Shown here one piece after another: positions 7,701-42,572 of a stretch of DNA of 64,000 nucleotides; position 1 is the first letter of the stretch, and each line of letters opens with the position of its first letter. The translations under genes and the position numbers were made by a program. Below the pieces are notes generated by a model. The model saw nothing but the letters and a program-made list of their open reading frames with translations. It was not told the origin of the DNA and searched no databases. The stretch comes from Thomasclavelia ramosa DSM 1402. GTDB taxonomy: Bacteria > Bacillota_I > Bacilli_A > Erysipelotrichales > Coprobacillaceae. The stretch is from the NCBI RefSeq assembly GCF_014131695.1, contig NZ_CP036346.1:2728001-2792000 (forward strand), given 5' to 3'.

Positions 7701-7953
7701 TGTCTGGTTGTTCTTTAATTATTAAACTTTTAACAACCGGTACGGTTAAGGGCTCAATATAAACCTTATCAGCAATATCCTTATCAGTCATGATTGTTGC
7801 AGGGTTAGAGTTGATTAAAACTACTTCAATCCCTTCTTCTTTTAATGCCCGACAAGCTTGAGTTCCAGCATAATCAAATTCTGCTGCTTGACCAATAATA
7901 ATTGGTCCCGAACCAATTACTAATACTTTTTTTATTCTACTATCTTTTGGCAT
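4756..7953 (-). CDS. carB: Carbamoyl-phosphate synthase large subunit, Bacillota-type copy
   Basis: A 1065-residue large subunit that makes carbamoyl phosphate from ammonia (supplied by CarA), bicarbonate and two ATP, for pyrimidine and arginine synthesis. It shows the duplicated carboxyphosphate and carbamate synthetase halves (VLVIGSGPIIIGQAAEFDY near the start, VLGSGPIRIGQGIEFDY near residue 555), two ATP-grasp domains and a C-terminal MGS-like allosteric domain. It follows carA by one base, with its ribosome site (GGAGGG) inside the end of carA, so translation is coupled. The allosteric domain (EGTYNFLKENDVPV, then ISAKSNTLFDLM) differs markedly from that of the second carB at 9.4-12.6 kb. 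Confidence 0.97.
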   Translation of the reverse strand: MPKDSRIKKVLVIGSGPIIIGQAAEFDYAGTQACRALKEEGIEVVLINSNPATIMTDKDIADKVYIEPLTVPVVKSLIIKEQPDSILPTLGGQNALNIAMALADEGFLEEHNVQTIGTSTNTIKLAEDRLEFKTLMENINEPCAASLVVNHVDDALEFAKKIGYPVVVRPAYTLGGTGGGIAYDETELHDICSNGLRLSRVSQCLIERCIAGWKEIEYEVMRDGAGNCITVCNMENLDPVGVHTGDSIVVAPSQTLSDKEYQMLRTSALNIITALDIQGGCNVQYALNPDSFEYCVIEVNPRVSRSSALASKATGYPIAKLAAKIALGYTLDEIINAVTGKTYASYEPTLDYVVCKIPKWPFDKFVDASRELGTQMKATGEVMSICNNFEGALMKALRSLEQNLYYLHLDELDGKDVEFLQKKLKDVDDQRIFAVAEALRQGISEKEIHDITKIDLWFIDKIKHLVEVEKELQNKELSGELLKKAKRLEFPNQVIAKLTGKTSDEVKNMCQENKINAVYKVVDTCAAEFDATTPYYYSVYGGVNEVNPADDKKKIMVLGSGPIRIGQGIEFDYCSVHCVWALKEAGYDTIIVNNNPETVSTDFDIADRLYFEPLTPEDVENIVNIEHPDGAIVQFGGQTAIKLTKALMEMGVKILGTSADDVDAAEDRERFDEILEKCEIDRPRGSTVFTIEEALEVANRLKYPVLVRPSYVLGGAGMEICLNDGDVKKFMKIINRQYQEHPILIDKYLAGKEVEVDAICDENGILIPGIMEHVERAGVHSGDSISVYPTQKIKQHIKDTIVEYTGRLAKALNVIGLINIQFIVYEDQVYVIEVNPRSSRTIPYISKVTDIPVVDVATHVIMGKTIKEQGYEYGLAPEKETIAIKMPVFSFEKIKGAEISLGPEMKSTGEVLGISTDYDEAIYKAFIGSGINLPKKKNIICTIKDSAKDEFLPIAKQYYMFGYDLYATEGTYNFLKENDVPVSLVNRISAKSNTLFDLMLTDTVDLIIDIPTRNDNLKDGFLIRRFAVEAGIPIFTSLDTAQALITSLEKRHKGDTSLVDITKLK

Positions 7954-9383: not shown

Positions 9384-12300
9384 TTATTTAATTGCTAAAT
9401 GATACTCTTGTAAAGATTTAACTTCATGACTACCATGAATTTTCATTTCCATAATTCCTTCTAATGATGCTTTAGCAGCAGCAATATTAGTCATATATGG
9501 AATTCTCATTTTAATTGCAGCTTTACGAATATAACTATCATCATGAGCACTTTGTTTACCATGAGGTGTATTAATGATCATTGCTAATTCACCATTAGTT
9601 AAAGCATCACTAATATTTGGACGACCTTCATGAATTTTTTTGATTTTTTCTACTGGAATACCACTTTCTTTGATCAAGTTATAAGTATTCCCTGTTGCTA
9701 CAATAGTAAATCCAGCATCATAATATCCTTGTGCAAGCTCAACAACTTCTGGTTTGTCTAAGTCACTAACACTGATCAAAACTTTTCCTTCAGTTGGTAA
9801 AATTGTTTTCGCCCCTTCTTCAGCTTTATATAAAGCTGCTCCATATGAACTGGCAATTCCTAATACCTCTCCAGTTGAACGCATTTCAGGTCCTAAAACA
9901 GGATCTACTTCCGGGAACATATTGAATGGGAAAACTGCTTGTTTAACTCCAATATGAGGAATTTTCTTTTCTGTTAAAGTTGGTACTGGTGAAGGACGCC
10001 CAGTCAATTCACGAGTAACAATATCTGTCGCAATTTTTACCATATTAATATTACATACCTTTGAAACTAGTGGTACTGTTCTTGAAGCTCTTGGATTGGC
10101 TTCTAATACATATACTTTATCATCAGCAATTGCATATTGCATATTCATTAAACCACGAACATTCATTTCTTTAGCAATTTTCTTTGTATATTCTTTAATT
10201 GTTTCTAAATGACGGATAGGAATATGTTTAGAGGGTAAGATACATGCTGAATCACCTGAGTGGATACCAGCTAATTCGATATGTTCCATAACCGCAGGAA
10301 CAAAAACAGTTTCACCGTCACTGATTGCATCAGCTTCACATTCCATAGCATTATTTAAGAAACGGTCGATTAAGATTGGGCGATCAGGAGTTACCCCAAC
10401 AGCTGCTTTCATATATTGTTCAAGACTTTCATCATCATAAACAACTTCCATTCCACGACCACCTAAAACATAAGAAGGTCTTACCATTAATGGATAGCCG
10501 ATTCTTTTAGCAATTTCTAATGCTTCTTCAACATTTACTGCCATTCCAGATTCAGGCATTGGAATTTCTAATTTTTCCATCATTGCATTAAATAAGTCAC
10601 GATCTTCTGCCATATCAATAGTTTCTGGTGTTGTTCCTAAAATATTCACACCATTTTTCTTTAATTGAGCAGCTAAGTTAAGTGGTGTCTGTCCACCAAA
10701 TTGTGCAATTACACCTACTGGTTTTTCTTTTTCATGAATACTTAAAACATCTTCTAATGTTAGTGGTTCAAAGTATAATTTATCAGATGTATCATAGTCA
10801 GTTGATACAGTTTCAGGGTTACAGTTAACAATAATTGTTTCAAATCCTAATTTCTTTAATGCTAAAGCAGCATGAACACAGCAATAGTCAAATTCAATTC
10901 CTTGTCCAATACGATTAGGTCCACCACCTAAAATCATAATTTTCTTTTTATCGTGATGAATGTCGCTATTATCTTCAGCATTATATGTTGAATAATAATA
11001 AGCACTATCCTTTGTTCCACTTACGTGTACTGGTTCCCATGCTTGATTAATATTATTAGCTAATCTTTCTTCTCTAATTACATTTTCCTCAACATTCAAA
11101 ATTTGACTTAAATATTTATCTGAGAATCCATCTTGTTTTGCTTGTTTTAGTACTTCAGCCGGTAATTCTTTACCTTCGTATGATTTTATATTTTCTTCTT
11201 CTTCAACTAATTCTTTCATTTGTTCAATGAAGTAATGTTTGATTTGTGTTAGTTCAAATAATTCTTCAACTGTTGCTCCCTTTCTTAACGCTTCATACAT
11301 AATGAATTGTCTTTCGCTAGTTGGAACAGTTAACATATGTAATAATTCTTCTTTAGATAACTTATTGAAGTTTTTAGCATACCCTAAGCCATAACGTCCA
11401 ATTTCCAATGAACGAATTGCTTTTTGGAAAGCTTCTTTATAAGTTTTGCCGATACTCATAACTTCCCCAACAGCTTTCATTTGAGTACCAAGTTTATCTT
11501 CAGCCCCTTTGAATTTTTCAAATGCCCAACGTGCAAACTTGATTACAACATAATCACCATCAGGTACATATTTATCTAAAGTTCCATATTTACCACAAGG
11601 AATATCTTCCATAGTCAAACCAGCCGCTAACATTGCTGAAACTAAAGCAATTGGGAATCCTGTTGCTTTTGATGCTAAAGCTGATGAACGAGATGTTCTT
11701 GGATTAATTTCAATAACAACGATTCGATCAGTTTCTGGATCATGAGCAAATTGAACATTTGTCCCTCCAATTACACCAATTGATTCAACAATTCTAAATG
11801 CTTGGTCTTTTAAACGATCTTGCACTTCTTGGCTAATTGTTAACATTGGAGCGCTACAGAATGAATCTCCAGTATGAACTCCTAATGGATCAATATTTTC
11901 AATGAAACATACTGTGATCATGTTGTTGTTAGCATCACGAACAACTTCAACTTCTAATTCTTCCCAACCTAAAATAGATTCTTCGATTAAACATTGACCA
12001 ACTAAACTAGCTTGTAACCCCCGAGATACAACTGTTTTTAATTCTTCAACGTTATATACCAGTCCACCACCGGCACCACCCATAGTATAAGCAGGGCGCA
12101 CAACTACTGGATAACCTAACCGTTCAGCAATTGCTAAGGCTTCTTCAACAGTTGTTGAAACCTCACTACGAGCCATTTCAATGCCTAATTTATCCATTTC
12201 TTTTTTAAATTCTAAACGGTCTTCACCACGTTCAATCGCATCAACTTGAACTCCTAATACTTGAACGTTATATTTTTCTAAAACACCAGCCTCATTTAAT

Positions 12301-12602
12301 TCAGAACATAAGTTTAATGCTGATTGCCCACCTAAGTTAGGAAGTAACGCATCTGGTCTTTCTTTTTCAATGATCTGTGTTAATCGTTCTACATTTAATG
12401 GTTCAATATAAGTAACATCAGCAGTTTCCGGATCTGTCATGATCGTTGCAGGATTTGAGTTCACTAACACGATCTTATAACCTAACCCTCTTAAAGCTTT
12501 ACACGCTTGAGTTCCTGAATAATCAAATTCACAAGCTTGACCAATAATAATTGGACCTGAACCAATTACTAATACTGTATTAATATCTTCTCTTTTTGGC
12601 AT
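9384..12602 (-). CDS. carB: Carbamoyl-phosphate synthase large subunit, second and divergent copy
   Basis: A complete 1072-residue large subunit with both synthetase halves, two ATP-grasp domains and the MGS-like allosteric domain. It is clearly not a recent copy of the gene at 4.8-8.0 kb: it begins MPKREDINTVLVIGSGPIII, has GGGPNRIGQGIEFDYCCVHA at the second-half start and LQEYHLAIK at the end, all closer to what I recall of Gram-negative CarB, and its allosteric domain carries an EGRPNISD stretch like the EGRPHIQD of E. coli CarB. It is transcribed alone from its own promoter and attenuator, and presumably uses the single nearby CarA. It starts at 12602 after GGAGGA. Confidence 0.95.
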   Translation of the reverse strand: MPKREDINTVLVIGSGPIIIGQACEFDYSGTQACKALRGLGYKIVLVNSNPATIMTDPETADVTYIEPLNVERLTQIIEKERPDALLPNLGGQSALNLCSELNEAGVLEKYNVQVLGVQVDAIERGEDRLEFKKEMDKLGIEMARSEVSTTVEEALAIAERLGYPVVVRPAYTMGGAGGGLVYNVEELKTVVSRGLQASLVGQCLIEESILGWEELEVEVVRDANNNMITVCFIENIDPLGVHTGDSFCSAPMLTISQEVQDRLKDQAFRIVESIGVIGGTNVQFAHDPETDRIVVIEINPRTSRSSALASKATGFPIALVSAMLAAGLTMEDIPCGKYGTLDKYVPDGDYVVIKFARWAFEKFKGAEDKLGTQMKAVGEVMSIGKTYKEAFQKAIRSLEIGRYGLGYAKNFNKLSKEELLHMLTVPTSERQFIMYEALRKGATVEELFELTQIKHYFIEQMKELVEEEENIKSYEGKELPAEVLKQAKQDGFSDKYLSQILNVEENVIREERLANNINQAWEPVHVSGTKDSAYYYSTYNAEDNSDIHHDKKKIMILGGGPNRIGQGIEFDYCCVHAALALKKLGFETIIVNCNPETVSTDYDTSDKLYFEPLTLEDVLSIHEKEKPVGVIAQFGGQTPLNLAAQLKKNGVNILGTTPETIDMAEDRDLFNAMMEKLEIPMPESGMAVNVEEALEIAKRIGYPLMVRPSYVLGGRGMEVVYDDESLEQYMKAAVGVTPDRPILIDRFLNNAMECEADAISDGETVFVPAVMEHIELAGIHSGDSACILPSKHIPIRHLETIKEYTKKIAKEMNVRGLMNMQYAIADDKVYVLEANPRASRTVPLVSKVCNINMVKIATDIVTRELTGRPSPVPTLTEKKIPHIGVKQAVFPFNMFPEVDPVLGPEMRSTGEVLGIASSYGAALYKAEEGAKTILPTEGKVLISVSDLDKPEVVELAQGYYDAGFTIVATGNTYNLIKESGIPVEKIKKIHEGRPNISDALTNGELAMIINTPHGKQSAHDDSYIRKAAIKMRIPYMTNIAAAKASLEGIMEMKIHGSHEVKSLQEYHLAIK

Positions 12603-27744: not shown

Positions 27745-29976
27745 TTACTTTTTTAATTTTAAAATTTTCTCATACTCATCTAATGGCAGCGGTCGAGCAC
27801 AATAATATCCCTGAATATAATCTACCTTCATTCTAATTAATTCCTCATACTGTCCAGCCTGTTCTACACCTTCAGCTACAACGACTAGCCCTAAAGATTG
27901 AGCTAAACTAATAATCGATTTCAAAATTTCTTTAGCCTTTGAATTGACCTCCAAATCATCAATCATTGTTTTATCAATTTTTAAACAATCGATTGGCATT
28001 GATTCGAGCATCATGATTGAAGAATAACCTGAACCAAAATCATCCATAGATACTGTAATCTTTAATTTCCTAAATTTATTGAGAATATCTTTTAAAATAT
28101 CACGATTATCAAACAGACTTGTTTCCGTCATCTCTAATTCAATTAAATTATAGGGTATCTGATAAGCATCAATTACTTTTAGATAACTTTCAACAAAATC
28201 TTGACGATATAAATGTAATTGCGAAACATTTACCGCTATAGGAGCAACCTCAAGACCATCATCAAGCCATTTACGAATCTGCTTACACGTAATTACAAAA
28301 ACATACTCATCCAATTCAATAATATTACTGCTGCGTTCTAAAACCGGTATAAATTCTCCAGGACTTATCGATCCTAGTTTACTGCTTTTCCACCTAACCA
28401 GCGCCTCAGCTCCATAAAGTCTTTTTTTCTTTGTACTATATTTTGGCTGAAAATAAACTTCAAATTCATGATTATGCAAGGCTTCCTCAAACAAGTCTTC
28501 CAACTCTTTATTTTTATACATTCTTTGACGAATGTTATCATTGTAAAAATTACAATTCTCTAGTTCATGGCGATTTTCATCACGAATCACAGTTGCGGCT
28601 CGATCAACCATTGATTCAATTCGATCATTATAATTTTCAATTAAATAAATCCCAACAATCATTTTAATTCGATAAGCTGCTTCATCATTACTGTTAATTG
28701 CATTTTCCATATTTTTAATCATATACTCTGCCCGCTTTTTCAACTGTGTAACAGAGTCATATTGTAATAAAGCAACAAAGTGATCAGCTTGAATTCGTGC
28801 ACAAAACTCTTTTTCCTGCAACAAATTATTTAAAATTTTAGCTATTTTCACTAAAATAAGATTACCCTCATCATAGCCATATAAATCATTAATATACTGA
28901 AACTTCAAAATATTGAAATAAACCATTGTATATTTAGATTTGGTAGATTTTAAAATATCACCACCAGCCAGTCTAAAGCGTGTATATGAACCGCATCCCG
29001 TTACCTCATCAACTAGTGCCACTTCTTCTAAACGTTTTTGATTATTACGATACATCAATACAATTCGAGTAATTAAATATAAAATTCCTAATAAACAGCA
29101 GCCTAGCATCATATAACCTAAAAAAAGCATTCCATTAATATTATTATCAACCACCGAAGCAGGAATAACACTCAACAAATACCAATCATTAACATCAAGC
29201 TTTTGGTAATACAAATATCTAGCTTCATCTGTCCGATCATACTCTAAAAATCCACTTTTTTCATTTTTAATATTATGTTTTAAATTTTCCAGCTTTTCTT
29301 TATTTTCTTTTGAAATTGCCCCAATATCATCAAAAAAGTTAGAAAATTTAATGCTTGTCTTGTTAGAAGAATCTACAATTTTATCACCATTTTCCTTAAT
29401 AATAAAACTATACCCTAAACCATCAAATGTAGAAACCGATAAAGTCTCTTTATAATACCGTGATGCATAAGCTCCAAAAAGTACACAATGTTGATCATTA
29501 TCAAAGGTTATGGGTAACGTATAAACACTAACTTCTTCACCATCAATCAAATCCGGCAATGTATCAGTAATTGATACTTCACCATTCATCGCTTTATTAA
29601 AACGGGTCATTTGCTGTTCATTTAATAAAATATTATTATCATCTGTCGTATAGGACTGTCCTCTCTCATCAATTATTCCAATTCGTTTAAAATTATTAAT
29701 TTCATTCACTTTTTTTATTTTGTTAATAATTTTGACGGGATCAAAAGCATCCTCTTGGCTAATATAAATTGATAAATTTGCTAAAACTGCAACATTTTTT
29801 TGAATCTCTTTATCAATCACATTTACACTTTGACTAGAAATTTCTGATAACGTATTTAGAACCTGTTCTTGTGAAATTGTTTGAGATTTAAAAGCAAAAA
29901 AAGTTGCGACAACAGCAATGATCAAACATGATATCACGATGTCGACATAGATTCTTTTAAAGTTTTTAATTTTCAT
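27745..29976 (-). CDS. Cyclic-di-GMP phosphodiesterase: dCACHE, degenerate GGDEF, EAL
   Basis: A 743-residue protein: membrane helix (about 8-28), extracellular CACHE-type sensor (about 30-280), membrane helix (about 285-310), a GGDEF domain whose active loop reads QADHF and so should be inactive as a cyclase, and a full EAL domain (about 490-740). EAL motifs are intact: AEALVRW, DDFGSGYSS, LKIDKTMI, VAEGVE and QGYYCARPLP. It should hydrolyse cyclic di-GMP, opposing the two cyclases in this window. The start is ATG 29976, six bases after GGGGTG. Confidence 0.9.
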   Translation of the reverse strand: MKIKNFKRIYVDIVISCLIIAVVATFFAFKSQTISQEQVLNTLSEISSQSVNVIDKEIQKNVAVLANLSIYISQEDAFDPVKIINKIKKVNEINNFKRIGIIDERGQSYTTDDNNILLNEQQMTRFNKAMNGEVSITDTLPDLIDGEEVSVYTLPITFDNDQHCVLFGAYASRYYKETLSVSTFDGLGYSFIIKENGDKIVDSSNKTSIKFSNFFDDIGAISKENKEKLENLKHNIKNEKSGFLEYDRTDEARYLYYQKLDVNDWYLLSVIPASVVDNNINGMLFLGYMMLGCCLLGILYLITRIVLMYRNNQKRLEEVALVDEVTGCGSYTRFRLAGGDILKSTKSKYTMVYFNILKFQYINDLYGYDEGNLILVKIAKILNNLLQEKEFCARIQADHFVALLQYDSVTQLKKRAEYMIKNMENAINSNDEAAYRIKMIVGIYLIENYNDRIESMVDRAATVIRDENRHELENCNFYNDNIRQRMYKNKELEDLFEEALHNHEFEVYFQPKYSTKKKRLYGAEALVRWKSSKLGSISPGEFIPVLERSSNIIELDEYVFVITCKQIRKWLDDGLEVAPIAVNVSQLHLYRQDFVESYLKVIDAYQIPYNLIELEMTETSLFDNRDILKDILNKFRKLKITVSMDDFGSGYSSIMMLESMPIDCLKIDKTMIDDLEVNSKAKEILKSIISLAQSLGLVVVAEGVEQAGQYEELIRMKVDYIQGYYCARPLPLDEYEKILKLKK

Positions 29977-30044
29977 CTCATACACCCCACATTTATCTCT
30001 ACAATATTATATCATTATCGATTAATAAAATCGATTAATTGTAT

Positions 30045-30087: not shown

Positions 30088-33000
30088 TTAACTCTTCTTT
30101 CTTAATCTAACCACAGCTAAAAGTGCAACTAATGATATCATTGCAAATTCAAAGAGCATTGTTTCATCACCTGTTTTAGCATTTTTCTTTGTTTTGTCTG
30201 ATACCTCAGTCCCTGGCTGTTCCTCAACCTTCGGTTCCTCTTTTTGACTAGCTTTAACAGCTTCGATTTTTGTTAATAGAGCATCACTCATTTTATTAAC
30301 ATCTTCACTGCTAACATCATTAGCAATCAGTGCAACTGCCTGACTTAATAATTCTTCTAATTCCTTGACTAACTCAATATCATATTTATCTTTGTTAGCA
30401 AGAACTTGTTTTGCCAATTCAATTTGGAGTAATAAATTATCTTTATTAACAACTTGCTTTAATTCATTGAAAGCTCTTAGTAATTCATCGTAGGCATTTT
30501 GAATAGCACCTTCATTAGCGTCAAGATCCTGATTAACTGTGACGGCCCTTTCATAACCATTTTTAAACGTTTTCCATGATTCTTCAGTATAATCTTCTTC
30601 TTTTAAATCTTTAACCTGTTCAATCAATTTATCTAAATCCTTGCGCTCTACTATTTCTAAAAGTCCTTCAATCGCTTCATTGATTTCTTGTTTTGCATTT
30701 TGTAAAACTATAAGTTCCTTACTGTTATCATCTATTAGTTTTCTTCCTGCTTCATAAGCATCTTGCAATACTTTCAAAGTAGCTGGTCGAAGATTTACTG
30801 CTTCTTTATCCAAAATCTCTTTTGCAACTTCAACGCTTACCTTTAATTCCCGGTAACTAATCAGAATGGCTTTTTCATTTGCAAGATTTGTTAGATTGGC
30901 TTGAACATCTTTTTCAACTACTTCTCCTGCTCCTAGTGCAACTAAGGCATTTGCTTGATCAAGATATCCTTTCATAACCTTAAACATTTCTGCAGAATAA
31001 TCAGTTTCCATCTTAGTAACTTCATCAATCAGTACAACCAGTTCATTAAATGATGATTCCAATGCCCTAAATGTTAAATTATCTAATGCTGTTTGCAGTT
31101 CAGATACCATCTTATCAACATCGCTTTGAGTAATATCCATTCTATCAGCCATTGCTTCAGCTGCTTCTTTGTTTTGTATGAAACTTTGCCAGCTTGAAAC
31201 TGTACTATTTGCTTCACTGTACCCTTCTGCCAGTTTACTCTCCGCCACTTCAAGCACTGTTTCTAAAGCACTTTTATCAACTCTTACAACCTGTTTCTTT
31301 AAATTTGTGTATTTTTTAGACAATTCTTCTTTGAACTTAAGCATTTCTTCTTCACTGATACTTTCTTTTCCTACCACTTCATTTTCAAGATTGGTTAAAT
31401 AAGCCGTGAAAGTTTGATAAGTTTCTTCTTTGATTTGACCGTGGAAATTACCCACATTCATTTCACTTAATTTATCTTTAACTTGACTAATTGTTCTAAG
31501 TAAATCATTTTTAGGATTTTCATATACTTCAATTTCATAAATAGAATATCCATACTTAGCGTTATTAGCAGCTTTTGTACCAATTAATTTAATATAACGT
31601 GCTTCAATATCACCTAATCCAGTATGATTATTTTCCTTAGCTACATTACCAGTTACATTTTTGATCGTAAACCAGTCTTTACCGTTAACTGAGCCTTTTA
31701 ATTCATAGTCCACTCCATAAGCATCTTCCCAGGTAATCTTGATTTGATCAACTTTATAAACTTTATTTAAATCTACCTGGATCCACTGATCATGCGTACG
31801 TGCTGACGCCCAGCGTGATTGCTCAGGACCACTAGCACTTTGATTAATGATTCCATCAAATGCTTTATTTGGTGTTTGATAATCAGTATAGCTGCTTGAA
31901 GCTGTTGCTTTTTTATTCAAAGCAACATTTTCATGAATAACATCTATTCCTGTATCATAAAGATTTTTAATTTCTTCATTATTCAATAAACGATTATAAA
32001 CTTTAATATTATCTAATGTTCCTACTAAATTTTGTCCAATCTTTTGTAGTGGTAAATTGATTGAAGCTGAATCATACCACTTATTCCCCGAATTGGTAAG
32101 AATTGGTCCATTGATTGTTGATTTAACTACTCCATCTAGATAAACATTAGTATATTTTTTATCAGAAGTAAAAGCTAATTGATATAATTTTCCCTTTTCA
32201 AGTTCTATATTATGCTCATAATGATAACTATCACGATCGTACATCAGCTTGTATTTACCATCAATTTCTTTTAAATAGATTTTTCTTGTTTGATACTTTG
32301 TATCAATCCACTGATTACATTCTTCTATTGGCATTGTTTCTTCAAATAATACAATATCGCCTGTTTGTGATTCATCGATTTTTAAATCAAAAGCTAAAGT
32401 ATACGGCCATTTCAATGCACTATGCTGCATTTGTAGATTACCATCACCATTTAATTTCAATGCCTGACCTTCATCAGTTGTTTCAACTGTTGCTTTGATT
32501 GCAGTAGCATCATAACCATTTCCAGAATTATCTTTAATGACTAAATTATCCCCTTGTTTTGAAGTATTTTCCATATCAAAGTCATATACTTTTTCTGTTT
32601 TACTGCTAATTTCTTTATCCATCTCAACATTTGGACCAGTACCTAAAGTATTGACCTCAGCTTTAAATTGGTCATATGACTTGTCATTATCTTTACCGTA
32701 CCAAAAGGTTTGAGCATATATTGGTAAGATACTTTGTGTTCTTGCAAAAACATCATAAACAGAAATCCCATTAAAGATTCCTCGGTCATTCCATAATGAA
32801 ATCGAACCCCCAACAATTTTTGGATGTCCTTCAGCAACATCAACTCCAGCGCCCATTTTATCTCTAAATTTTCCAGCACTTAAGTTATTGTACATTTCTT
32901 CTTCTTTCGCAAAATCTGGATAACCATTATTCCCGCCAGGAACAATATAACCATACTTATTAGTTGCGTTAATTAATTTATAATCCTGATTAAATAATGA

Positions 33001-35274
33001 TTTTAAACTGATTGCATAATTTGCCCAAGCATCCATAATTGGATAATCTGGTATTTTTGTTTTATCAGAATCTACACATCCCATAGAAGCCCATGCCATT
33101 GGCGTTTTACCATATTTATTATAAACAAGATCCATTACGTATTGAGTATACTGGGTCATATCTTCCTTGTATGCACTATTGTACTCATCAAGCCCTACAT
33201 TAAATGCATCGGTTACAAAAACCGGATTATCTCCCCCCATATATTCTTCATATAGATCAGCAATAAATTTATACACTGTTTCTTTTTTATCAGAATTTAA
33301 GCGTATATCTAAATGTGTTCCATCAAATCCTAATTCAGAATTATTGTCAATAAACACTGCTGAATGTGCTGGAGTATCGAACTCAGAAACAATTCTAATT
33401 CCATAATCCTCAGCATAATATTGGAAATCACGATACTCACCTTTTGTATAATAACCATCTGTTGCCGTTAATCCTGGAATATCTGACTCCAATCTAAAAC
33501 GCGAATGACCGTTGTATGAAGTATCATTTAAATGTACTTGAATATCTGTGAACTTGTACCAAGATGCATATTTAACAAAATCTTTTAAATACCACATTGG
33601 CATATATTTACGGGCAACATCCAACATGAATTTACGATATTCATATTTAGCATAATCTCGTGCTTCACCTTTATTAATTGTCAGTGCATCCCCACTTGCA
33701 ACTAATGCTTGTAAAACACTGCGTGTTCCAAAGAAAATACCTTGATAAGTTGTTGACTTAATTGTAATACTATCCCCAATTTCTAATGTATATCCCTGAT
33801 CACCAATAGTGGTATCCGCATTTTCTTTAGTTAATAAAATATCTCCTTTTTTTACTGTTGTATTACTAATTTCTAATTCTAATCCAAATAAATCCTTAAT
33901 ATCATCTTTAGTAATTTGAGCTGCTTTATATAAACTTTCATCTTGAACAATAATTCTAGAATTATTAGTTAATTGATAAGTTCCTGTTGCTCCATTCCAT
34001 TCTTGAATCGTTGGAACTGTAGTAGGGACAGGATTACTATCTAAAGCAACTGAATTTTGCCCTGGAATTATAACTGGAATATTTTTCATTTCCTTAGTTG
34101 CATTAGTTCTTTTATCTTTAATAATATAAGTAACTAACACTTCCTTATCTACCAATGGCTTATGAATCATTCCATTATCTTCAACTACAAAGTCAGTATC
34201 ACTACAAAAAATTTCTGCTACAATATTATCATTATCATAATGATATACTGGCATCTTATCCATATTTGAAGTAATTGTTCCGATTGTAAAATCTTTGGCA
34301 ATATCATCAACTGTAAGACTATTATTTACTTCTTCATAAATTTCCATTTCCCAAATAGAAATCGGTTTAGCACTACCAACACCATTACTTGCTGTAGCAT
34401 ATAAACGAACAAACCGAGCTGTAATTGGATCAAAATCAAATTTTTCCCAACTTCCCTTACCATCATCTACATTTACAAATGTTATCCAATTTTTATCAGT
34501 TCCAACATCATTAGAATATTGCAATACATATTTTGTCGCAAAAGCATTTTCCCAAAAAATATGTATTGATGAAAATGTCATTTCTGCTTCTAAATCAACA
34601 TAGATCCATTGGGGACTCTTAGTAATATTTCCACTTGACCAGCGTTCATTATAATCATTACTGTATTTACCATCAAAGGCTCCACCTGGTCCAAGACGAT
34701 CCAAATTAGCTTCATTGCCAGAAGCATATGCTGGTTTATTTAAAGCAATATTAACTGGATCATTACTAGTATCCTTCTTAACTCTTAAAACTTCTAATTC
34801 TTTTAAACCAATCGTACTTTCTCCGCTCTTAGCTTCAATCAGTTCAATTTTCACATAGCGGGCAATTGTATTTTCTTCCATTTCCCATTCTTCATCGCCA
34901 CCAGTACCCTCTTCGTGGAATAGGACTTGTCCATATTTTTGGTCGGTCTTAGCCACATATAGTTTATAACGAAATGCAAAATTACTAGCCCACTTTAATG
35001 TAATTTTTTCAAAACTTTCCTCTTTCCCTAAATCAACTATAATACTTGGGTTTGTACTAATATTACCTACTTCCCATTTAGTATCCATCTTACCATCAAC
35101 TGCATTGCTCCCCTCATTGCCGGCAATAGCACTACTCGCCACAACCACTTTATCCAATGCGATATTTTCATACTCTTGTTCAGCAGCTACATTTGTAATA
35201 AGTTGGTTAAATGTAGTAAATACCATCAAGAGTGATAATAATGAAATAAAACCTTTCCTTAATATCTTTTCCAT
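30088..35274 (-). CDS. Giant wall-anchored GH20 hexosaminidase with CBM32, LamG and FIVAR modules
   Basis: A 1728-residue secreted protein: signal peptide (about 1-31), two CBM32/F5-8C galactose-binding-like domains (about 34-320), a GH20 accessory domain, a GH20 catalytic barrel (about 545-890; catalytic Asp-Glu in NVGLDEY), a LamG-like domain, a third CBM32, several FIVAR helical repeats, then NAKTGDE, a membrane helix and RLRKKS. GH20 enzymes remove terminal beta-GlcNAc or GalNAc, or lacto-N-biose, from glycans; mucin or milk-type glycans are a plausible target. The ATG at 35274 follows AAAGGGAAG; the longer frame overlaps the leader terminator. Controlled by a RAT/terminator and a dyad pair upstream. 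Confidence 0.9.
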   Translation of the reverse strand: MEKILRKGFISLLSLLMVFTTFNQLITNVAAEQEYENIALDKVVVASSAIAGNEGSNAVDGKMDTKWEVGNISTNPSIIVDLGKEESFEKITLKWASNFAFRYKLYVAKTDQKYGQVLFHEEGTGGDEEWEMEENTIARYVKIELIEAKSGESTIGLKELEVLRVKKDTSNDPVNIALNKPAYASGNEANLDRLGPGGAFDGKYSNDYNERWSSGNITKSPQWIYVDLEAEMTFSSIHIFWENAFATKYVLQYSNDVGTDKNWITFVNVDDGKGSWEKFDFDPITARFVRLYATASNGVGSAKPISIWEMEIYEEVNNSLTVDDIAKDFTIGTITSNMDKMPVYHYDNDNIVAEIFCSDTDFVVEDNGMIHKPLVDKEVLVTYIIKDKRTNATKEMKNIPVIIPGQNSVALDSNPVPTTVPTIQEWNGATGTYQLTNNSRIIVQDESLYKAAQITKDDIKDLFGLELEISNTTVKKGDILLTKENADTTIGDQGYTLEIGDSITIKSTTYQGIFFGTRSVLQALVASGDALTINKGEARDYAKYEYRKFMLDVARKYMPMWYLKDFVKYASWYKFTDIQVHLNDTSYNGHSRFRLESDIPGLTATDGYYTKGEYRDFQYYAEDYGIRIVSEFDTPAHSAVFIDNNSELGFDGTHLDIRLNSDKKETVYKFIADLYEEYMGGDNPVFVTDAFNVGLDEYNSAYKEDMTQYTQYVMDLVYNKYGKTPMAWASMGCVDSDKTKIPDYPIMDAWANYAISLKSLFNQDYKLINATNKYGYIVPGGNNGYPDFAKEEEMYNNLSAGKFRDKMGAGVDVAEGHPKIVGGSISLWNDRGIFNGISVYDVFARTQSILPIYAQTFWYGKDNDKSYDQFKAEVNTLGTGPNVEMDKEISSKTEKVYDFDMENTSKQGDNLVIKDNSGNGYDATAIKATVETTDEGQALKLNGDGNLQMQHSALKWPYTLAFDLKIDESQTGDIVLFEETMPIEECNQWIDTKYQTRKIYLKEIDGKYKLMYDRDSYHYEHNIELEKGKLYQLAFTSDKKYTNVYLDGVVKSTINGPILTNSGNKWYDSASINLPLQKIGQNLVGTLDNIKVYNRLLNNEEIKNLYDTGIDVIHENVALNKKATASSSYTDYQTPNKAFDGIINQSASGPEQSRWASARTHDQWIQVDLNKVYKVDQIKITWEDAYGVDYELKGSVNGKDWFTIKNVTGNVAKENNHTGLGDIEARYIKLIGTKAANNAKYGYSIYEIEVYENPKNDLLRTISQVKDKLSEMNVGNFHGQIKEETYQTFTAYLTNLENEVVGKESISEEEMLKFKEELSKKYTNLKKQVVRVDKSALETVLEVAESKLAEGYSEANSTVSSWQSFIQNKEAAEAMADRMDITQSDVDKMVSELQTALDNLTFRALESSFNELVVLIDEVTKMETDYSAEMFKVMKGYLDQANALVALGAGEVVEKDVQANLTNLANEKAILISYRELKVSVEVAKEILDKEAVNLRPATLKVLQDAYEAGRKLIDDNSKELIVLQNAKQEINEAIEGLLEIVERKDLDKLIEQVKDLKEEDYTEESWKTFKNGYERAVTVNQDLDANEGAIQNAYDELLRAFNELKQVVNKDNLLLQIELAKQVLANKDKYDIELVKELEELLSQAVALIANDVSSEDVNKMSDALLTKIEAVKASQKEEPKVEEQPGTEVSDKTKKNAKTGDETMLFEFAMISLVALLAVVRLRKKS

Positions 35275-35361: not shown

Positions 35362-35404
35362 AAAAAAAGACAAGACTAAAAAGCATCTCGCTTTTTCGGT
35401 CTTG
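35362..35404 (-). terminator. Leader terminator of the first GH20 gene
   Basis: CAAGAC/GTCTTG plus inner AAAAAGC/GCTTTTT helix with a 5-base loop, then TC and seven T on the minus strand. Its first arm is the 3' end of the RAT element (35398-35404), so the two structures exclude each other. It lies 87 bases before the gene. Confidence 0.88.
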
Positions 35405-35424
35405 CCTACTGAAAGTAACAATCC
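35398..35424 (-). promoter_or_regulatory. BglG/LicT-type ribonucleic antiterminator (RAT)
   Basis: The minus strand reads GGATTGTTACT, then TTC, AGT and AGGCAAGACC with overlap. This matches the bgl/sac RAT consensus at both conserved ends (GGATTGTTACT and AGGCAARACC). A PRD-containing antiterminator protein would bind the folded RAT and prevent the overlapping terminator. The 27 bases are identical to those at 41561-41587. No such protein is encoded in this window. Confidence 0.85.
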
Positions 35425-35484: not shown

Positions 35485-35529
35485 GGTACAATGTTTCGTA
35501 TAAAAGATATAAACATGGCACAATGTTCC
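35485..35529 (-). promoter_or_regulatory. Pair of dyad operator sites (candidate RpiR sites)
   Basis: GGTACAATGTTTC (35485-35497) and GGCACAATGTTCC (35517-35529) share the dyad pattern GGNACAWTGTNYC, centres 32 bases apart (three helical turns), just upstream of the promoter. The same pattern occurs twice before the next GH20 gene. Binding by the RpiR protein at 41.7-42.6 kb is inferred. Confidence 0.6.
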
Positions 35530-35616: not shown

Positions 35617-38600
35617 TTAATCAAATTTTTTACGACAAATTAATCCCATTAGAGCTATTCCTAATAATCCTGCATAACCAAATAAATTAACATCATCACC
35701 TGTTTTTACAGATTTATCACTTGTATCAGTTACTGGTTTGTTAGTTGGTGTTTCCGTTTCCTCACCAGGTTTTACTTCTATTGGTTTTAAAGCATCATAA
35801 ACTTGATTTAATGAATCTAACATAGCATCTAATTCCGCCTGAGATACATCTTTACTATCTAATAATTCTTTTGCTGCCTTAATCATTGTTTGAAGTTTAT
35901 TCCATGAATCTTGATTATAATTAGCTTGATCTAGATCTTTTATCGCTTCAGTTATTTTATTGATAACTTTTTCAAGGTCTTTTGAATTACCTAATTCTAG
36001 AAGTTTCATCGCAGCCTCTCGAACTAATGCAACCATTGCATCTACTTGTTCTTGGTTAACATCACTATTATCGACTACCATTGCATTTGCTGCCTGATAT
36101 ACTCCTGCAAATTCTGCCCATGTACTTATTGTATAATCAGCCTCATCGTATTCTTTTAATAATTTCGCTAATTCTTTAGTATTTCCTCGTTTTTCTAAAT
36201 TAATTTCATTAAGAGCAGCTATCGCATTATCTACATCCACTTGATTTAAACTTACATTTTCATAAACAAGCTTAGCAGCATCAACAATTGTTTTCATCGT
36301 TTGCCATGAACTCGTTGTATAATCAGTTTCTTGAAAATTATCATAACTTTCAATAGCTGTTTTTAATTTACTTCGATCCAATTTAACTAAACTACTATCT
36401 AAAGTTTGTAATTGTCCCATTGCTTCATTTACTTTAATATAATCATCAGCATTATCAATTAATCCTTTAATAGCAGTTAATTTTGTATTAAAATCAACAA
36501 AGCTATCCTTTGTGAAATCTTTTTCTTGATATAAACTAACTTTTTGATATAGTTCATTTAATTCGTTTTTTGAATAAATCACACTATCTTCTATTGAGTT
36601 GATTATCGCAGTCACTTCTTTTAATAGCTTGCCAATTTCCTCAGTAGAAATTTCTGTACCGTCTGCAAGTGCTAAATAATCCTCAAATTTTTGTTCAAAT
36701 ACTTCATAATCATCTTTAGCAATATTTCCATTTTTATTACCAGCATCAAATTTTGCTAGCTCAGCTTGACCTTCTTTAACTAATGCTCTTAATCCCTCAT
36801 TAGTACTTTGATATACTTCTAATTCATAAATTGAATATCCCCAATTACGATTTTTAGCATCATGACAAGCAATTCTTACATAACGTGTTTCAACATCACC
36901 TAAGTCTTTATGAGTTATTTCTCCTCCAGTACCATTAGTAATATCTTTAATGTCAAAGAAGTTTACACCATCCAATGAGCCTTGAATCGTGTATTTAGTT
37001 GCATAAGCACCTTCCCAAGAAATAAATACTTTATCAACTTTATAGTTTGCCCCTAAATCTACCGTAAGATCTTGTTCAACTGTTCCATATTCAGTATCGC
37101 CTTCATTAGTTCCTGCACCTGTTGCCCGTTTGCTTGACCAGCGATTAGTTGTAACTTTAGTATTGTCTCCATCAACTGCTAAATTTGGTGTCAAATTAGG
37201 AGTAAGTGGATTTACGGAAGATGCAGTTGCATTTTTGTTTAAAGCTAAATTTTCTAATTGAATATAACCTAATTCATCAGAAATTTCTGTCGCACTAAAG
37301 GTTTTATTATAAATCTTAATGTTATCAACACTACCTTTTGCATTATTTAAGATTTTTTCAACTGGTAAAACAAATGTACTAGAATCTTTACGGTTATTAA
37401 TTGCAGTGCCCATATTAATTCCCGTTGTTATCGCTTTTCCATTAATGTATAAAGTCGTATTCTTTTGATCACAAGTCAAAGCTAAATTTACCCAAGTATC
37501 TTTGGGAAGTTCATAATCAAAAGTAAAGTTATATCCACTACGTGAGTATCCTATTTTTCCAGTTCCATCGATATTAGCATACATAACACCATCATCACCA
37601 CTAAATATTTCGGTATTTTCAGATGTATTGCTGTCTAATTTAATATCCATCATTACTGTATAAGGATAACCAATTGATTTATATGGCAATGCCACATACC
37701 CATCTCCATTTACAGTAGCAATATTATTACCATTAGCTTTTTCAATAATTGCGTTATTCAATGTAGCATTATAATTATTTCCTGAAGTATCTACTGCTTT
37801 TCCATTTTTAATTGTTTCAAAATCAATTGCTGTAATATTTTCTCCTTTTGATTCGACTACCCTTCCCGGATTTGCCCCAGGTACAACACTATTTAATTTA
37901 TTAGCCCGTTCAACAAACTCAGCAGCAGTTTGACCATCCGTCTTTTCTCCATACCAAGTTTTTTCACTAGTAATCATAACTGCATCAATAAAACGATCGT
38001 AAATATCAAACCATGTAAATCCTCCACCATATGAAGTCATATCATTCCATACACAGAATTGACCACCTTTAGTTTGAGGATGAGCAATTGGCATGATTGC
38101 AGTACCTTGTCCGGCATTTCGACTTGGTGAGAAATTATTAACATCGAACTTATCATATAATGAAGCAATATCCAAACGATCTGGATAACCAGCATTAGCT
38201 CCAGGAACAATATATAACCATCCCCCACAAGTATTGATGATATCATAACCGGCATTATAAGTTTCTTTAACATCTGCCCAATATGGTGCCCATAAGTTAA
38301 CCGTAGCATCATTTGATACTGGTGTTGTTCCGTTAAATCCTCGACTACCTAAAGACCCCCATAACCTTGTATCATATCCTTTATCATTAACATAATTAAT
38401 AAAATGATCAGTCCATTTACGCATTTGCTCTGAATATGATTTATCATATTCATCTGTTCCAATATGGAATTTATCACTTTGAATAACAGGATTTGGCCCA
38501 TCTAAATATTCATCCAGAACAGCTTCAATAACATCATAAGAGGATTGTTCTCTAATATCCAACGCCCCTGCTTTAAGCATTTTTACTCCAGGAACATTTC

Positions 38601-41457
38601 TAAAACATTCAGCATGATATGGCGTATCAATTTCCGTAATTACATTGATTCCATAGTTTTTCATGTCAATCTGATATTGACGATACTCCTCTTTAGTGTA
38701 GCTGCCATCAGTAGCTGTAATCATTGGATAAGTATCGCACTCTAATCTAAAAGCTGAATACCCTGTAGCTCCCCAATAATCATTTACATGAACTTGAACT
38801 TCATTAAGTTTATAGTATGCCATATAAATCGTCATTTCTTGTAAATACTCCATTGGAATATAAGTACGAGCTACATCTAGCATACCTGCCCGAACCTCAT
38901 ATTTAGGGTAGTCCCGCGCTAATCCTTTAGCTACATTATTCATCCCATCATTCTGCGAAAACATTTGGGTAATTGAAATACCACCATATAAAATTCCTGT
39001 TTCATAGTTAGATTTAATTTCAATCATATCATCGATGGCAAGCGTATATCCTTCTTTCCCTAAGTTGTCAACACTACCATCTTTTACTAAAACAATATCA
39101 CCACTCTTTTCACCACTAGTAACAATTTCAAGTTCATGTTTGATCATCTCTTTTAAATAAAACTGAATTTGTTTAGCAGTAGCTTCCAAACTGGCATCTT
39201 TAACAACAATTTTTGAATTCTTTGATAATGTGAATTCTCCTTCATTACCTTTCCATTCCCGTAATCCCGGCATTACATTAGGCTTAGCATTAATACTTTC
39301 TTCCTTGTTATAAGCTCCAGGTACAATAAAGTTAATATCGGCTTCACTATAAGCAATATCAGTTTCATCATTCAAGTTTTTAACTTGATATAATACATTA
39401 ATATCCATATCTTCCAATGGCCGAGTAATTGTTCCATCCATTGCTACAACCTGTTTATTATCGCAACCGTATAAACTAATTTCAAAGCCATCAGGTACCG
39501 CTGGTAAAACAATTTTATTACCATTGATTTGTGGCGCTTCCTTATTCAATGACTTTAAAACTTCATCAGCAGTTGTAACTGTATGATCTCTTTCTTTATA
39601 TACTTCAAATTCATAAATACTGCCACTATATTTATTTTTATTAGTATGGGTCCAGCGTTTTAATTGAACATACTTAACATATCTTGCTTTTGTTGCTTCA
39701 ATTTGAATCTCTTTAATTTCACTAGGTCCTCCATCTGGAAGATCAGCAGCTTCATAAACATCTTGATAGTTTACACCGTCAGTAGATACTTGAATTTTAA
39801 ATGCTGGTGGGCATGATTCATAATTGATTACAAATTCAGATACTGTCTTACGACTTCCTAAATCTACTAATAACCATTGATTATCTGCAGTTTTACCAAA
39901 AGATACCCGACTGTCCTTAGAAACCACTCCATCTACTGCCATTGGTGCAGTAAAGCGGCCATCACCTACTTCTAATGATGAAGCGCTAACAGGCCGATTC
40001 AATGCAATATTACTGTAATCTTTGGCATCTGGATCTTGTTCATATACCTCAAATTCATAAATACTGCCACTGTATTGTTTCCCATTACCACTATGTGTCC
40101 AGCGTTTTAATTGGACATATTTAACATATCGTGCTTCAGTAGGATCAATTGAAATCTTTTGAATATTGCTAATTTGCCCCTCTAAATTACTAACCTCATA
40201 AATATCACGGTACACTTTATCTTCACCAGCAACTTGAATCTTGAAAGCAGGTACTTGTGATTCATAATTAATCACAAAATTAGAAATAGTTTCTGTTTTA
40301 CCTAGGTCAACTTCTAACCATTGCTCATCTTTATCTTTAGCCAAAGATACACGACTATCACTAGAAACAATACCATCTACTGCCATTGGTGCAGTCCATC
40401 TTCCATCATTCACCTCTAGTCCTGATACACTAACGTCTTTATTTAGAGCTAAATTAGGATATCTTGTTTTAAGATTATCCTGTGCTGTTTGAATATCTTT
40501 AACAGCCTTATTGATTTGCTCTTGAGTAGCATTTTGATCAAGCAGTTCCCCTGCAACCAATTTTTCATCTAAAGTGTTGTAAGAAGCGTTACTATATTTA
40601 CCTTCATCTAAAGCATTAGCATCGCTAATCACAAGATCTAAATAATCTCTAGAAGCAACTGGTTGATCTAATAACTTAGCATCGGCATAAAATAAATTAT
40701 GATCAGATAAATCTGTTTCAACCATTGTAATATTACTAATTTCTAAATTTCTAGAAGTAATAATATTATCGACTGCACTAGTCTTCATACTTGCATCAGT
40801 ACCATTAAAGGTATCGTACCACTTTCCACCTTTACCATTTGCAATGTTGTAATCTTCTAAAAATGGATAAATTTCATTGTGATTTTGATCTACATTAAAA
40901 TCCCCAAAAGCAACTTTATATTCTGCCGGATCTTGATCCATAGTTGCTTTTAACTCTAATAACTGTTTCGCACGAGCTTCTACTGACTCATATGTCAAAT
41001 GAGTATTATAAACTGCAATAACTTTACCGTTTACTTCAATTTCTCCTTTTTGCCATGCTCGAGCTTCTTTAATTCCCTCACTATTCAAAGCTCCACCATT
41101 TGTATTGATTAATTCTAAGTTTGACAGTAGTGCAACACCATAATCACCACCACCAGTTTCAATTGCTTTTTGAAATGAACTGTAAGCATAATCACCTTGC
41201 TCTACAAACTTCTCTAACATATTGTATGGATTACGACTTGTATTAATATCCACTTCCTGCAATCCTACGATATCAACATTATTTGTCTTCAATAATTCAT
41301 TTAGCTTGGTTATATCAGGTTTTTTATTAGCCGCAATATTAAATGTTGCTAATCTGACATTATCGGTTGCTGCAGTAACTTTCATCATTGGCATAACTTG
41401 CGATATAACTGTTACTGCTGCAACTAAAGAAGCTATAATTCTTTTTGTTCTTCTCAT
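35617..41457 (-). CDS. Giant wall-anchored EEP-phosphoesterase/GH20 fusion protein
   Basis: A 1946-residue secreted protein. After the signal peptide (about 1-30) comes an endonuclease/exonuclease/phosphatase domain (about 33-267) with its catalytic set: TFNIA, GLQEVD, NTHL, GDFN and SDHN. Then a short helical stretch, two CBM32 domains (about 335-620), a GH20 accessory domain, a GH20 barrel (about 865-1190; Asp-Glu in FHIGTDEYD), a LamG-like domain, a third CBM32, about six FIVAR repeats, SVKTGDD, a membrane helix and CRKKFD. It should combine phosphodiester or phosphomonoester cleavage with hexosamine release at the cell surface. The EEP substrate (nucleic acid, sphingomyelin or phospho-glycan) cannot be told. 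The start follows AAAGGGAAA. Confidence 0.9.
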   Translation of the reverse strand: MRRTKRIIASLVAAVTVISQVMPMMKVTAATDNVRLATFNIAANKKPDITKLNELLKTNNVDIVGLQEVDINTSRNPYNMLEKFVEQGDYAYSSFQKAIETGGGDYGVALLSNLELINTNGGALNSEGIKEARAWQKGEIEVNGKVIAVYNTHLTYESVEARAKQLLELKATMDQDPAEYKVAFGDFNVDQNHNEIYPFLEDYNIANGKGGKWYDTFNGTDASMKTSAVDNIITSRNLEISNITMVETDLSDHNLFYADAKLLDQPVASRDYLDLVISDANALDEGKYSNASYNTLDEKLVAGELLDQNATQEQINKAVKDIQTAQDNLKTRYPNLALNKDVSVSGLEVNDGRWTAPMAVDGIVSSDSRVSLAKDKDEQWLEVDLGKTETISNFVINYESQVPAFKIQVAGEDKVYRDIYEVSNLEGQISNIQKISIDPTEARYVKYVQLKRWTHSGNGKQYSGSIYEFEVYEQDPDAKDYSNIALNRPVSASSLEVGDGRFTAPMAVDGVVSKDSRVSFGKTADNQWLLVDLGSRKTVSEFVINYESCPPAFKIQVSTDGVNYQDVYEAADLPDGGPSEIKEIQIEATKARYVKYVQLKRWTHTNKNKYSGSIYEFEVYKERDHTVTTADEVLKSLNKEAPQINGNKIVLPAVPDGFEISLYGCDNKQVVAMDGTITRPLEDMDINVLYQVKNLNDETDIAYSEADINFIVPGAYNKEESINAKPNVMPGLREWKGNEGEFTLSKNSKIVVKDASLEATAKQIQFYLKEMIKHELEIVTSGEKSGDIVLVKDGSVDNLGKEGYTLAIDDMIEIKSNYETGILYGGISITQMFSQNDGMNNVAKGLARDYPKYEVRAGMLDVARTYIPMEYLQEMTIYMAYYKLNEVQVHVNDYWGATGYSAFRLECDTYPMITATDGSYTKEEYRQYQIDMKNYGINVITEIDTPYHAECFRNVPGVKMLKAGALDIREQSSYDVIEAVLDEYLDGPNPVIQSDKFHIGTDEYDKSYSEQMRKWTDHFINYVNDKGYDTRLWGSLGSRGFNGTTPVSNDATVNLWAPYWADVKETYNAGYDIINTCGGWLYIVPGANAGYPDRLDIASLYDKFDVNNFSPSRNAGQGTAIMPIAHPQTKGGQFCVWNDMTSYGGGFTWFDIYDRFIDAVMITSEKTWYGEKTDGQTAAEFVERANKLNSVVPGANPGRVVESKGENITAIDFETIKNGKAVDTSGNNYNATLNNAIIEKANGNNIATVNGDGYVALPYKSIGYPYTVMMDIKLDSNTSENTEIFSGDDGVMYANIDGTGKIGYSRSGYNFTFDYELPKDTWVNLALTCDQKNTTLYINGKAITTGINMGTAINNRKDSSTFVLPVEKILNNAKGSVDNIKIYNKTFSATEISDELGYIQLENLALNKNATASSVNPLTPNLTPNLAVDGDNTKVTTNRWSSKRATGAGTNEGDTEYGTVEQDLTVDLGANYKVDKVFISWEGAYATKYTIQGSLDGVNFFDIKDITNGTGGEITHKDLGDVETRYVRIACHDAKNRNWGYSIYELEVYQSTNEGLRALVKEGQAELAKFDAGNKNGNIAKDDYEVFEQKFEDYLALADGTEISTEEIGKLLKEVTAIINSIEDSVIYSKNELNELYQKVSLYQEKDFTKDSFVDFNTKLTAIKGLIDNADDYIKVNEAMGQLQTLDSSLVKLDRSKLKTAIESYDNFQETDYTTSSWQTMKTIVDAAKLVYENVSLNQVDVDNAIAALNEINLEKRGNTKELAKLLKEYDEADYTISTWAEFAGVYQAANAMVVDNSDVNQEQVDAMVALVREAAMKLLELGNSKDLEKVINKITEAIKDLDQANYNQDSWNKLQTMIKAAKELLDSKDVSQAELDAMLDSLNQVYDALKPIEVKPGEETETPTNKPVTDTSDKSVKTGDDVNLFGYAGLLGIALMGLICRKKFD

Positions 41458-41521: not shown

Positions 41522-41569
41522 AAAAAAGGCACGACTAAAAAGCTTTAATTAGTGCTCTTTGGTCTTGCC
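41522..41569 (-). terminator. Leader terminator of the EEP-GH20 gene
   Basis: GGCAAGAC pairs with GTCGTGCC (one mismatch) and AAAGAGC with GCTTTTT on the minus strand, then six T. The first arm is the 3' end of the RAT. It lies 64 bases before the gene. Confidence 0.85.
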
Positions 41570-41587
41570 TACTGAAAGTAACAATCC
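41561..41587 (-). promoter_or_regulatory. Second BglG/LicT-type RAT element
   Basis: Identical over 27 bases to the element at 35398-35424 (GGATTGTTACT ... GGCAAGACC on the minus strand), although the terminator that follows differs in sequence. Conservation of only the RAT part indicates selection for protein binding. Confidence 0.85.
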
Positions 41588-41656: not shown

Positions 41657-41712
41657 GGAACAATGTTTCTAAATAAAAGCTCACAAATAAAAAAAAGCTG
41701 GCACATTGTACC
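41657..41712 (-). promoter_or_regulatory. Second pair of dyad operator sites
   Basis: GGAACAATGTTTC (41657-41669) and GGCACATTGTACC (41700-41712) fit GGNACAWTGTNYC, centres 43 bases apart (about four turns). They lie between the RpiR gene and the EEP-GH20 gene, upstream of a weak TTTAAA-N17-TAATAA promoter (41612-41640). Confidence 0.6.
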
Positions 41713-41726
41713 AACTCAAAGTAAAA

Positions 41727-42572
41727 CTATTTCACTGTCTGTGATAATTCAGTATAGTCAATCAATTTATCCATACTCAATTCATGATTTGAAGCAATCA
41801 CACAGCCCACGAGCGTATTTAAAACATAACGTATTGCAGTTGTATAAATAACAGGAGCTAGATCTGAATAACTAACTCCAGTAGGAATAGTAATCACTTC
41901 TTTACAACAAGTTTCAAAAGTGGAATTAATATATCCCGTAACAGCAATCCCAGGAATTGCAATTTTATGATTTAATCTTATCTTCTCTAATAATTGAACA
42001 TTATGTTCACGATGATTAACATAGATTGCCAATGGATTAGCCGATTCACTTAAACAATTTAATGCTACCCAAAAGTTATCGGTTGCAATCTCTACAGCTT
42101 TTCCAATCCGAGCCATCATATACTTAAATTCGTGTCCAATCTGCTCATTAATTCCATCTGCAAAAATATAGATTATTGTAGCCTTGTTGATCAACTTAGT
42201 TATACGTTCAATTTGTTGATAATTCAATAACAATTTTGTTCGATCGATTGTATCTTTTTCAACACTTGCAATTTTTTCCATAACAGAAAAAGCTGTTTCT
42301 TGTTTTTTTATTTGAAATAAGATTTTATTATTTCCTTTACTCATCATATTTTGTAATTCATAAGCTAAATCGACCTTAAAATCAGAAAAACTACCATCAT
42401 AAATTTTTTTTATGACTCGCATTACAGTCGATGCCCCAGTATATGTTGTTTTAGCTAATTCTCTAATTGTAAGATGTAATATCTCCTCCTTATTTTCAAT
42501 AATATAATCTGCGATTTTAGATTCCGACGCTGAAAAATCTTTCTTTTCGGTCAGTTTTGCTATTATACTCAT
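41727..42572 (-). CDS. RpiR/MurR-family transcriptional regulator with SIS domain
   Basis: A 281-residue regulator: N-terminal RpiR helix-turn-helix (about 1-75; TIRELAKTTYTGASTVMRVIKK) and C-terminal SIS domain (about 115-270) for a phosphosugar ligand. RpiR proteins commonly control amino-sugar and sialic-acid use. It lies directly upstream of the EEP-GH20 gene on the same strand, and the four GGNACAWTGTNYC dyads before the two GH20 genes are the best candidates for its sites. The start at 42572 follows GGGGAAAG. It may sense a hexosamine phosphate released by GH20 action; that is inference. Confidence 0.88.
   Translation of the reverse strand: MSIIAKLTEKKDFSASESKIADYIIENKEEILHLTIRELAKTTYTGASTVMRVIKKIYDGSFSDFKVDLAYELQNMMSKGNNKILFQIKKQETAFSVMEKIASVEKDTIDRTKLLLNYQQIERITKLINKATIIYIFADGINEQIGHEFKYMMARIGKAVEIATDNFWVALNCLSESANPLAIYVNHREHNVQLLEKIRLNHKIAIPGIAVTGYINSTFETCCKEVITIPTGVSYSDLAPVIYTTAIRYVLNTLVGCVIASNHELSMDKLIDYTELSQTVK

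Follow-up and report, generated by a model that had tools for sequence, protein, structure and literature searches.

The window is the whole stretch of DNA that was analysed, 64,000 nucleotides of the forward strand of Thomasclavelia ramosa DSM 1402 (contig NZ_CP036346.1, positions 2,728,001 to 2,792,000), and it contains two giant surface GH20 genes, P0001 and, upstream of it, P0002, together with most of a third one which runs across the window edge (Table 1). The P0001 protein shows a signal peptide, three F5/8C domains, a GH20b and a GH20 domain, a Laminin_G_3 domain, a weak FIVAR match and a KTGD-type anchor tail, with AKTGDE, a hydrophobic stretch and RLRKKS at the C-terminus. Its GH20 catalytic domain scores 75.8 bits, above the cut-off of 22.3, a DE pair is readable in the sequence (NVGLDE), and the nearest solved relatives are beta-N-acetylhexosaminidases (7ezt and 6jqf). 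P0002 is a fusion of an N-terminal Exo_endo_phos (endonuclease/exonuclease/phosphatase) domain with a GH20 surface protein. Furthermore, a gene encoding a GGDEF-EAL protein (window 27745-29985) lies on the same strand about 100 bp downstream of P0001, and two carbamoyl-phosphate synthase large-subunit genes are found near each other (window 4756-7953 and 9384-12602).

Table 1. Features of the window and of the rest of the genome, in window positions unless marked as genome positions.
Feature	Position	Strand	Remark
P0001, surface GH20 (1728 aa)	30088-35274	-	ORF start 35274
Intrinsic terminator of the P0001 leader	35362-35406	-	RAT 3' half serves as 5' arm
RAT of P0001 (27 nt)	35398-35424	-	same class at 8 further genome sites
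Operator-like palindrome pair (13 bp each)	35485-35529 (35485-35497, 35517-35529)	.	upstream of P0001 RAT
P0002, surface GH20 (1946 aa)	35617-41457	-	KTGD-type anchor tail
RAT no. 2	41561-41587	-	27-mer identical to that of P0001; precedes P0002
Operator-like palindrome pair	41657-41712 (41657-41669, 41700-41712)	.	upstream of P0002 RAT
RpiR-family regulator gene	41727-42572	-	directly upstream of P0002 operators
Third RAT-led surface GH20	59926-64000, on to 64509	-	genome 2787926-2792509
RAT of the third GH20 gene	64593-64619		outside the window
RAT-led GH84	genome 817214
LicT-like PRD gene, best candidate regulator	genome 824912-825757		after nagE, 53 bp before a RAT-led GH84
RAT-led GH84	genome, after 825836
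RAT-led GH2 surface protein	genome 2610360-2615159
RAT-led lectin-like/DUF4082 surface protein	genome 2622893-2626372
Operator-like palindrome pair, third copy	genome 2626577-2626617		before the lectin-like gene
RAT-led GH16 surface protein	genome 2684204-2686825
RAT-led GH20	genome 2821171-2822862

The P0001 leader and the RAT-led genes of the genome

The minus strand from 35424 to 35398 reads GGATTGTTACTTTCAGTAGGCAAGACC, a canonical ribonucleic antiterminator (RAT), which shares its 3' half with an intrinsic terminator whose arms are GGCAAGAC and GTCTTGTC, with an inner stem AAAAAGC/GCTTTTT and a TTTTTTT run directly after the GTCTTGTC arm. Since the last bases of the RAT, GGCAAGAC, pair with GTCTTGTC, RAT and terminator are mutually exclusive. 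Predicted folding energies of this leader were -17.9 kcal/mol for the terminator compared with -3.9 kcal/mol for the isolated RAT, and the minimum-energy fold of the latter is weak and not exactly the canonical form. An earlier note on this DNA, made from the sequence alone, had claimed a 27-base RAT of the BglG/SacY type overlapping an intrinsic terminator at 35362-35424. Sequence and folding bear out the overlap, the span agrees with RAT and terminator taken together, and the class is that of a 27-30 nt hairpin with two internal loops and a conserved core. No match was obtained within the window with Rfam at gathering thresholds, and a simple terminator scan (loop of 3-8) missed the terminator of this leader. 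A terminator-like repeat 3' of the upstream gene P0002 suggests, as far as the sequence can be read, that P0001 has its own promoter; the promoter scan for P0001 gave no matches above shuffle level.

The earlier note had also proposed a search for more RAT copies. Across the 3.25 Mb of the genome, a loose pattern recovered nine strict RATs, eight of them new, versus none for a reversed-pattern control. This ruled out P0001 as a lone RAT gene, and its treatment in the earlier note as a single-gene oddity was abandoned: the nine RATs define a set of surface genes. Four of the RAT-led genes encode GH20, two GH84, and one each GH2, GH16 and a lectin-like protein; all nine products carry a C-terminal TGD-type anchor tail, and a terminator folds at each of the nine RATs (-14.9 to -33.1 kcal/mol for the whole segments). 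A RAT leads six out of seven GH20/GH84 genes in the genome; the seventh is one of the five GH20 genes. The RAT is not a mark of every surface enzyme, as the PL8, GH3, GH63-like and M60-type genes and this one GH20 gene show no RAT-like site upstream. None was found upstream of the phosphoesterase gene either, nor in the mere 5 bases scanned 5' of the ORF of the F5/8C-Big_2 protein gene. In addition, a decayed tenth RAT at genome 836084 (L020:10084-10600, genome about 836084-836600) precedes apparent gene debris with a very weak GH20 match (E 0.005). The GH2 (L026:4361-9160) and GH16 (L028:8205-10826) surface proteins show a YSIREKE stretch near the N-terminus, which we take to resemble the YSIRK signal motif.

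A candidate antiterminator and its distribution with the RATs

The earlier reading depended on the presence of a PRD antiterminator, and seven CAT/PRD (CAT_RBD) antiterminator genes were found in the genome. One of them follows immediately after nagE, which encodes the N-acetylglucosamine (GlcNAc)-specific PTS IIBC according to the NCBIfam equivalog TIGR01998 (608 bits, cut-off 553), which makes an antiterminator gene the direct neighbour of a gene for GlcNAc PTS transport. Its product shows the Pfam CAT_RBD domain and two PRD stretches, and the four PRD histidines align with those of LicT: H104, H163, H211 and H274 are kept in 14, 14, 14 and 15 of 15 aligned sequences, respectively. With 264.6 bits against the NCBIfam LicT equivalog, under the cut-off of 300, the protein is LicT-like and not LicT, and it was named NagY-like from its gene neighbourhood. 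On these sequence grounds, it is the best candidate for the regulator of the nine RATs. No RAT within two substitutions was found in the region upstream of nagE in this genome, where classical autoregulation was not seen; the RAT that follows nagY would control the downstream glycosidase alone. Upstream of nagE and divergent from it lies a gene for a separate PTS EIIA (genome 822502-822984, L019), and L098, L150 and L151 show a divergent gene that looks similar by eye. Elsewhere, a long RAT-like element, GGCTTGTTACCCGGGAAAAACAAGGGGCAATACC (genome 555443-555475, L025), precedes a gene of 482 aa and a PRD gene at 557018.

A real switch could also be served by a different member of the seven PRD antiterminators, such as a LicT-type one for beta-glucosides, either alone or by cross-talk. 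Seven CAT_RBD genes are available in the genome, the PRD gene at 972561 exceeds the NCBIfam LicT cut-off (331.8 vs 300) which the NagY-like protein does not reach, and the RAT core of the LicT/SacY type resembles that of the GGCRAGACC class to which the nine RATs belong. However, RAT-like sites next to four of the other PRD genes have different 3' halves (e.g., GGCTAAACT, AAGCTAAACC, GGCATGACC and GGCCAAACC), and the GGCRAGACC class goes with the presence of the NagY-like ortholog, not with PRD genes generally; in several genomes it lies a short distance downstream of this ortholog. We consider service by another antiterminator improbable, and the NagY-like protein is retained as the candidate regulator; cross-talk of the other six CAT/PRD proteins at the RATs may occur.

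Comparison of 43 family genomes found strict RATs in 12 of the 14 with an ortholog of this PRD gene versus none of the 29 without it (Fisher p 6e-9, a value not corrected for relatedness among the genomes). Orthologs share at least 59% identity, matches of 41% or less were treated as paralogs, and the two fragments of the broken antiterminator gene of G038 were counted as one ortholog. The class requires GGCRAGACC; matches without it were left out (those of G002, G006, G017, G020 and G030, and two of three in G028). The two ortholog-bearing genomes where strict RATs are absent, G029 and G032, show a degenerate RAT before nagE and a one-mismatch RAT after nagY, respectively. Within the genus, RATs are present in all seven genomes with the ortholog, one of them with a broken frame, and in neither of the two without it, which show one GH20 each. 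Four RATs are still present in G038, where the antiterminator frame is broken.

In total, 50 RATs were read: nine from this genome and 41 from other family genomes, 49 being strict and one, that of G032, having a single mismatch. Among the genes they lead, 44 encode GH20 (25, one of which, in L093, is merely a fragment) or GH84 (19), and the others encode GH2, GH16, a lectin-like protein, a GH141-type beta-helix protein and an arabinofuranosidase-like protein, or are a broken beta-helix gene. Anchor tails match the pattern in 32 of the 50 products, 14 run off the contig or the fetched stretch, and four show no match. Many GH20/GH84 genes of the relatives have no strict RAT. In L093 (3698), the RAT that precedes the broken GH20 gene has a broken basal pair.

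Terminator overlap, covariation and a second family

Under a strict rule, a terminator overlaps 46 of the 50 RATs, compared with an average of 0.205 once the downstream sequence had been shuffled; by reading, the four failures are the terminator of P0002, with an internal mismatch, and those of L116, L119 and L124, which fall short of the T-tail threshold. RATs with GGCGAG are paired with CTCG (3/3), and, by reading, those with GGCAAG whose reported stem spans that base are paired with CTTG. Of 53 RATs, 52 or all 53 show standard pairing at each of the seven canonical pairs, a figure in which the search pattern fixed several columns for 50 of them, and compensatory changes are found at both basal pairs.

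The basal stem forms a series which extends into a second family, from GG/CC through GA/TC to AA/TT, and the terminators change along with it. Relatives of this second family had been regarded as RAT-free, which was wrong: they carry RATs that differ in the basal stem. Their gene order is nagE-nagY followed directly by RAT-led homologs of P0002 and next P0001. In G130 (family f2), a P0002-like GH20 gene comes after nagE and nagY and has the RAT GATTTG...AAGATC, and a P0001 ortholog of 64% identity with the RAT AACTTG...AAGATT is found in L017 (CANSQL010000049.1) and L018, records labelled Erysipelotrichaceae and Erysipelotrichales. By reading, a TTGCAT/TATAAT promoter lies just before the RAT of L017, as does what is presumably a CcpA cre-like site. 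Synteny and covariation in the second family thus tie P0001 to the NagY-like protein. Contrary to this, G128, also of the second family, has the ortholog, and the stretch read shows no RAT-like site beside it.

A chance motif or a simple terminator of no regulatory role is what the shortness of the element and the lack of an Rfam match at gathering threshold could suggest; however, nine copies versus zero in the control, the strict gene context, the conservation and the covariation all speak against it. The control, the terminator rule in 46 of 50 and the covariation rule it out, and we give it practically no weight. The RAT could instead chiefly guide RNA processing by RNase III and the antiterminator, as has been proposed for nagY of Enterococcus faecalis, where RNase III co-regulation has been reported (PMC12502629). 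Nearly all RATs, however, overlap a strong intrinsic terminator in which compensatory changes are seen, and a main role in processing appears very improbable next to transcription antitermination.

A possible second control layer and the proposed switch

Palindromes resembling GRNACAWTGTNCC are common to P0001, P0002 and the lectin-like gene, upstream of the RAT in each case. The operator-like pair is found in exactly three places of the genome, all of them before RAT-led genes, the pattern having been derived from those three. One might guess that the RpiR-family protein is a second regulator acting on these pairs, and the RAT may not be the sole control of P0001, P0002 and the lectin-like gene, given this extra operator pair. 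Should P0001 and P0002 be controlled chiefly by the RpiR-type regulator acting at the palindrome pair, the RAT would only fine-tune their expression. The restriction of the pair to three RAT-led genes, the position of the RpiR gene adjoining P0002 and the P0001 promoter scan, no better than shuffles, are in line with such control, but the RAT is kept with the P0001 ortholog of another family, and six other RAT-led genes have no operator pair. We regard it as unlikely, although less so than the other alternatives, that the RAT has this subordinate role.

The reading we consider likely is a transcription antitermination switch, opened on GlcNAc uptake by the PRD protein encoded beside NagE and controlling all nine RATs. 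RNA polymerase would start upstream of the RAT and stop by default at the terminator that uses the RAT 3' half. During GlcNAc import through the NagE-type PTS, phosphate would pass to the sugar and the LicT-like PRD protein would lose its inhibitory PRD1 phosphate, dimerise, and bind and stabilise the RAT; the terminator could then not fold and the GH20 gene would be transcribed. The same protein would open the other eight RAT/terminators of the genome, with the result that one GlcNAc-uptake signal would induce surface glycosidases of the families GH20, GH84, GH2 and GH16, which could free more GlcNAc or galactose from their presumed substrates in a positive feedback loop. The earlier note had stated that surface glycan digestion is wired directly to PTS flux: a coupling through a PRD antiterminator is indeed expected here, and control by the flux itself is predicted from the mechanism above.

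The succession of PRD1 dephosphorylation, dimerisation, RAT binding and read-through is established for LicT and SacY. In Bacillus subtilis, LicT (bglPH, bglS) and SacY (sacB) are PRD antiterminators acting on RAT/terminator switches, with extracellular polysaccharide enzymes among their targets; unlike the set described here, they have few targets, which include secreted and not anchored enzymes, and respond to other sugars. BglG and the bgl operon of E. coli provided the founding RAT mechanism, in which the RAT 3' half is common to the terminator, but bgl is an intracellular beta-glucoside operon and autoregulated.

The closest parallel is NagY of E. faecalis. NagY binds a RAT upstream of hylA, which encodes a cell-wall-anchored lyase (PMC9981650); the lack of precedent implied by the earlier note thus does not hold. 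Furthermore, 26 direct targets of NagY were proposed by RIP-seq and RNA-seq, 23 of them with putative RATs by FIMO at P < 0.01 (PMC12502629). There, as in T. ramosa, the genes of a PRD antiterminator and of a GlcNAc PTS transporter are neighbours, a terminator-overlapping RAT precedes the gene of a cell-wall-anchored host-glycan enzyme, and GH20 is included in the RIP-seq targets. Both systems differ in gene order, which is described there as nagY-nagE with the RAT upstream (autoregulation), whereas T. ramosa has nagE first, then nagY and then the RAT. The RAT described for E. faecalis fits the classical consensus poorly, with the 3' consensus GCRUGGA, whereas it is canonical here; the genome-wide covariance search reported there gave two RAT/terminators, compared with nine strict RATs; and hylA is RAT-led, whereas the PL8 lyase gene of T. 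ramosa has no RAT. The open-access literature yielded these two E. faecalis NagY papers and no surface-glycosidase RAT regulon of such size in these bacteria. NagY-hylA is a known example of an anchored enzyme controlled by a GlcNAc-PTS antiterminator; what appears to be new is how large and coherent the strict RAT/terminator set for surface glycosidases is.

More broadly, and with somewhat less assurance than for the switch itself, we think it probable that the GlcNAc-PTS antiterminator is the master switch for dispersed giant surface glycosidases throughout the genus, with up to 10 strict RAT/terminators per genome, and that the unit of RAT, terminator and anchored glycosidase is a portable cassette carried by new glycosidase genes and decaying with a lost gene. 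To our knowledge, it is poorly understood how scattered host-glycan enzymes are coordinated in Gram-positive gut bacteria in the absence of clustered loci of the Bacteroides style. If the reading is true, one RNA-binding sensor is predicted for the whole hexosaminidase set, and the RAT class would be a short searchable tag from which the response of a surface enzyme to GlcNAc uptake could be predicted. These results suggest that one GlcNAc-uptake sensor turns on much of the host-glycan-digesting toolkit together.
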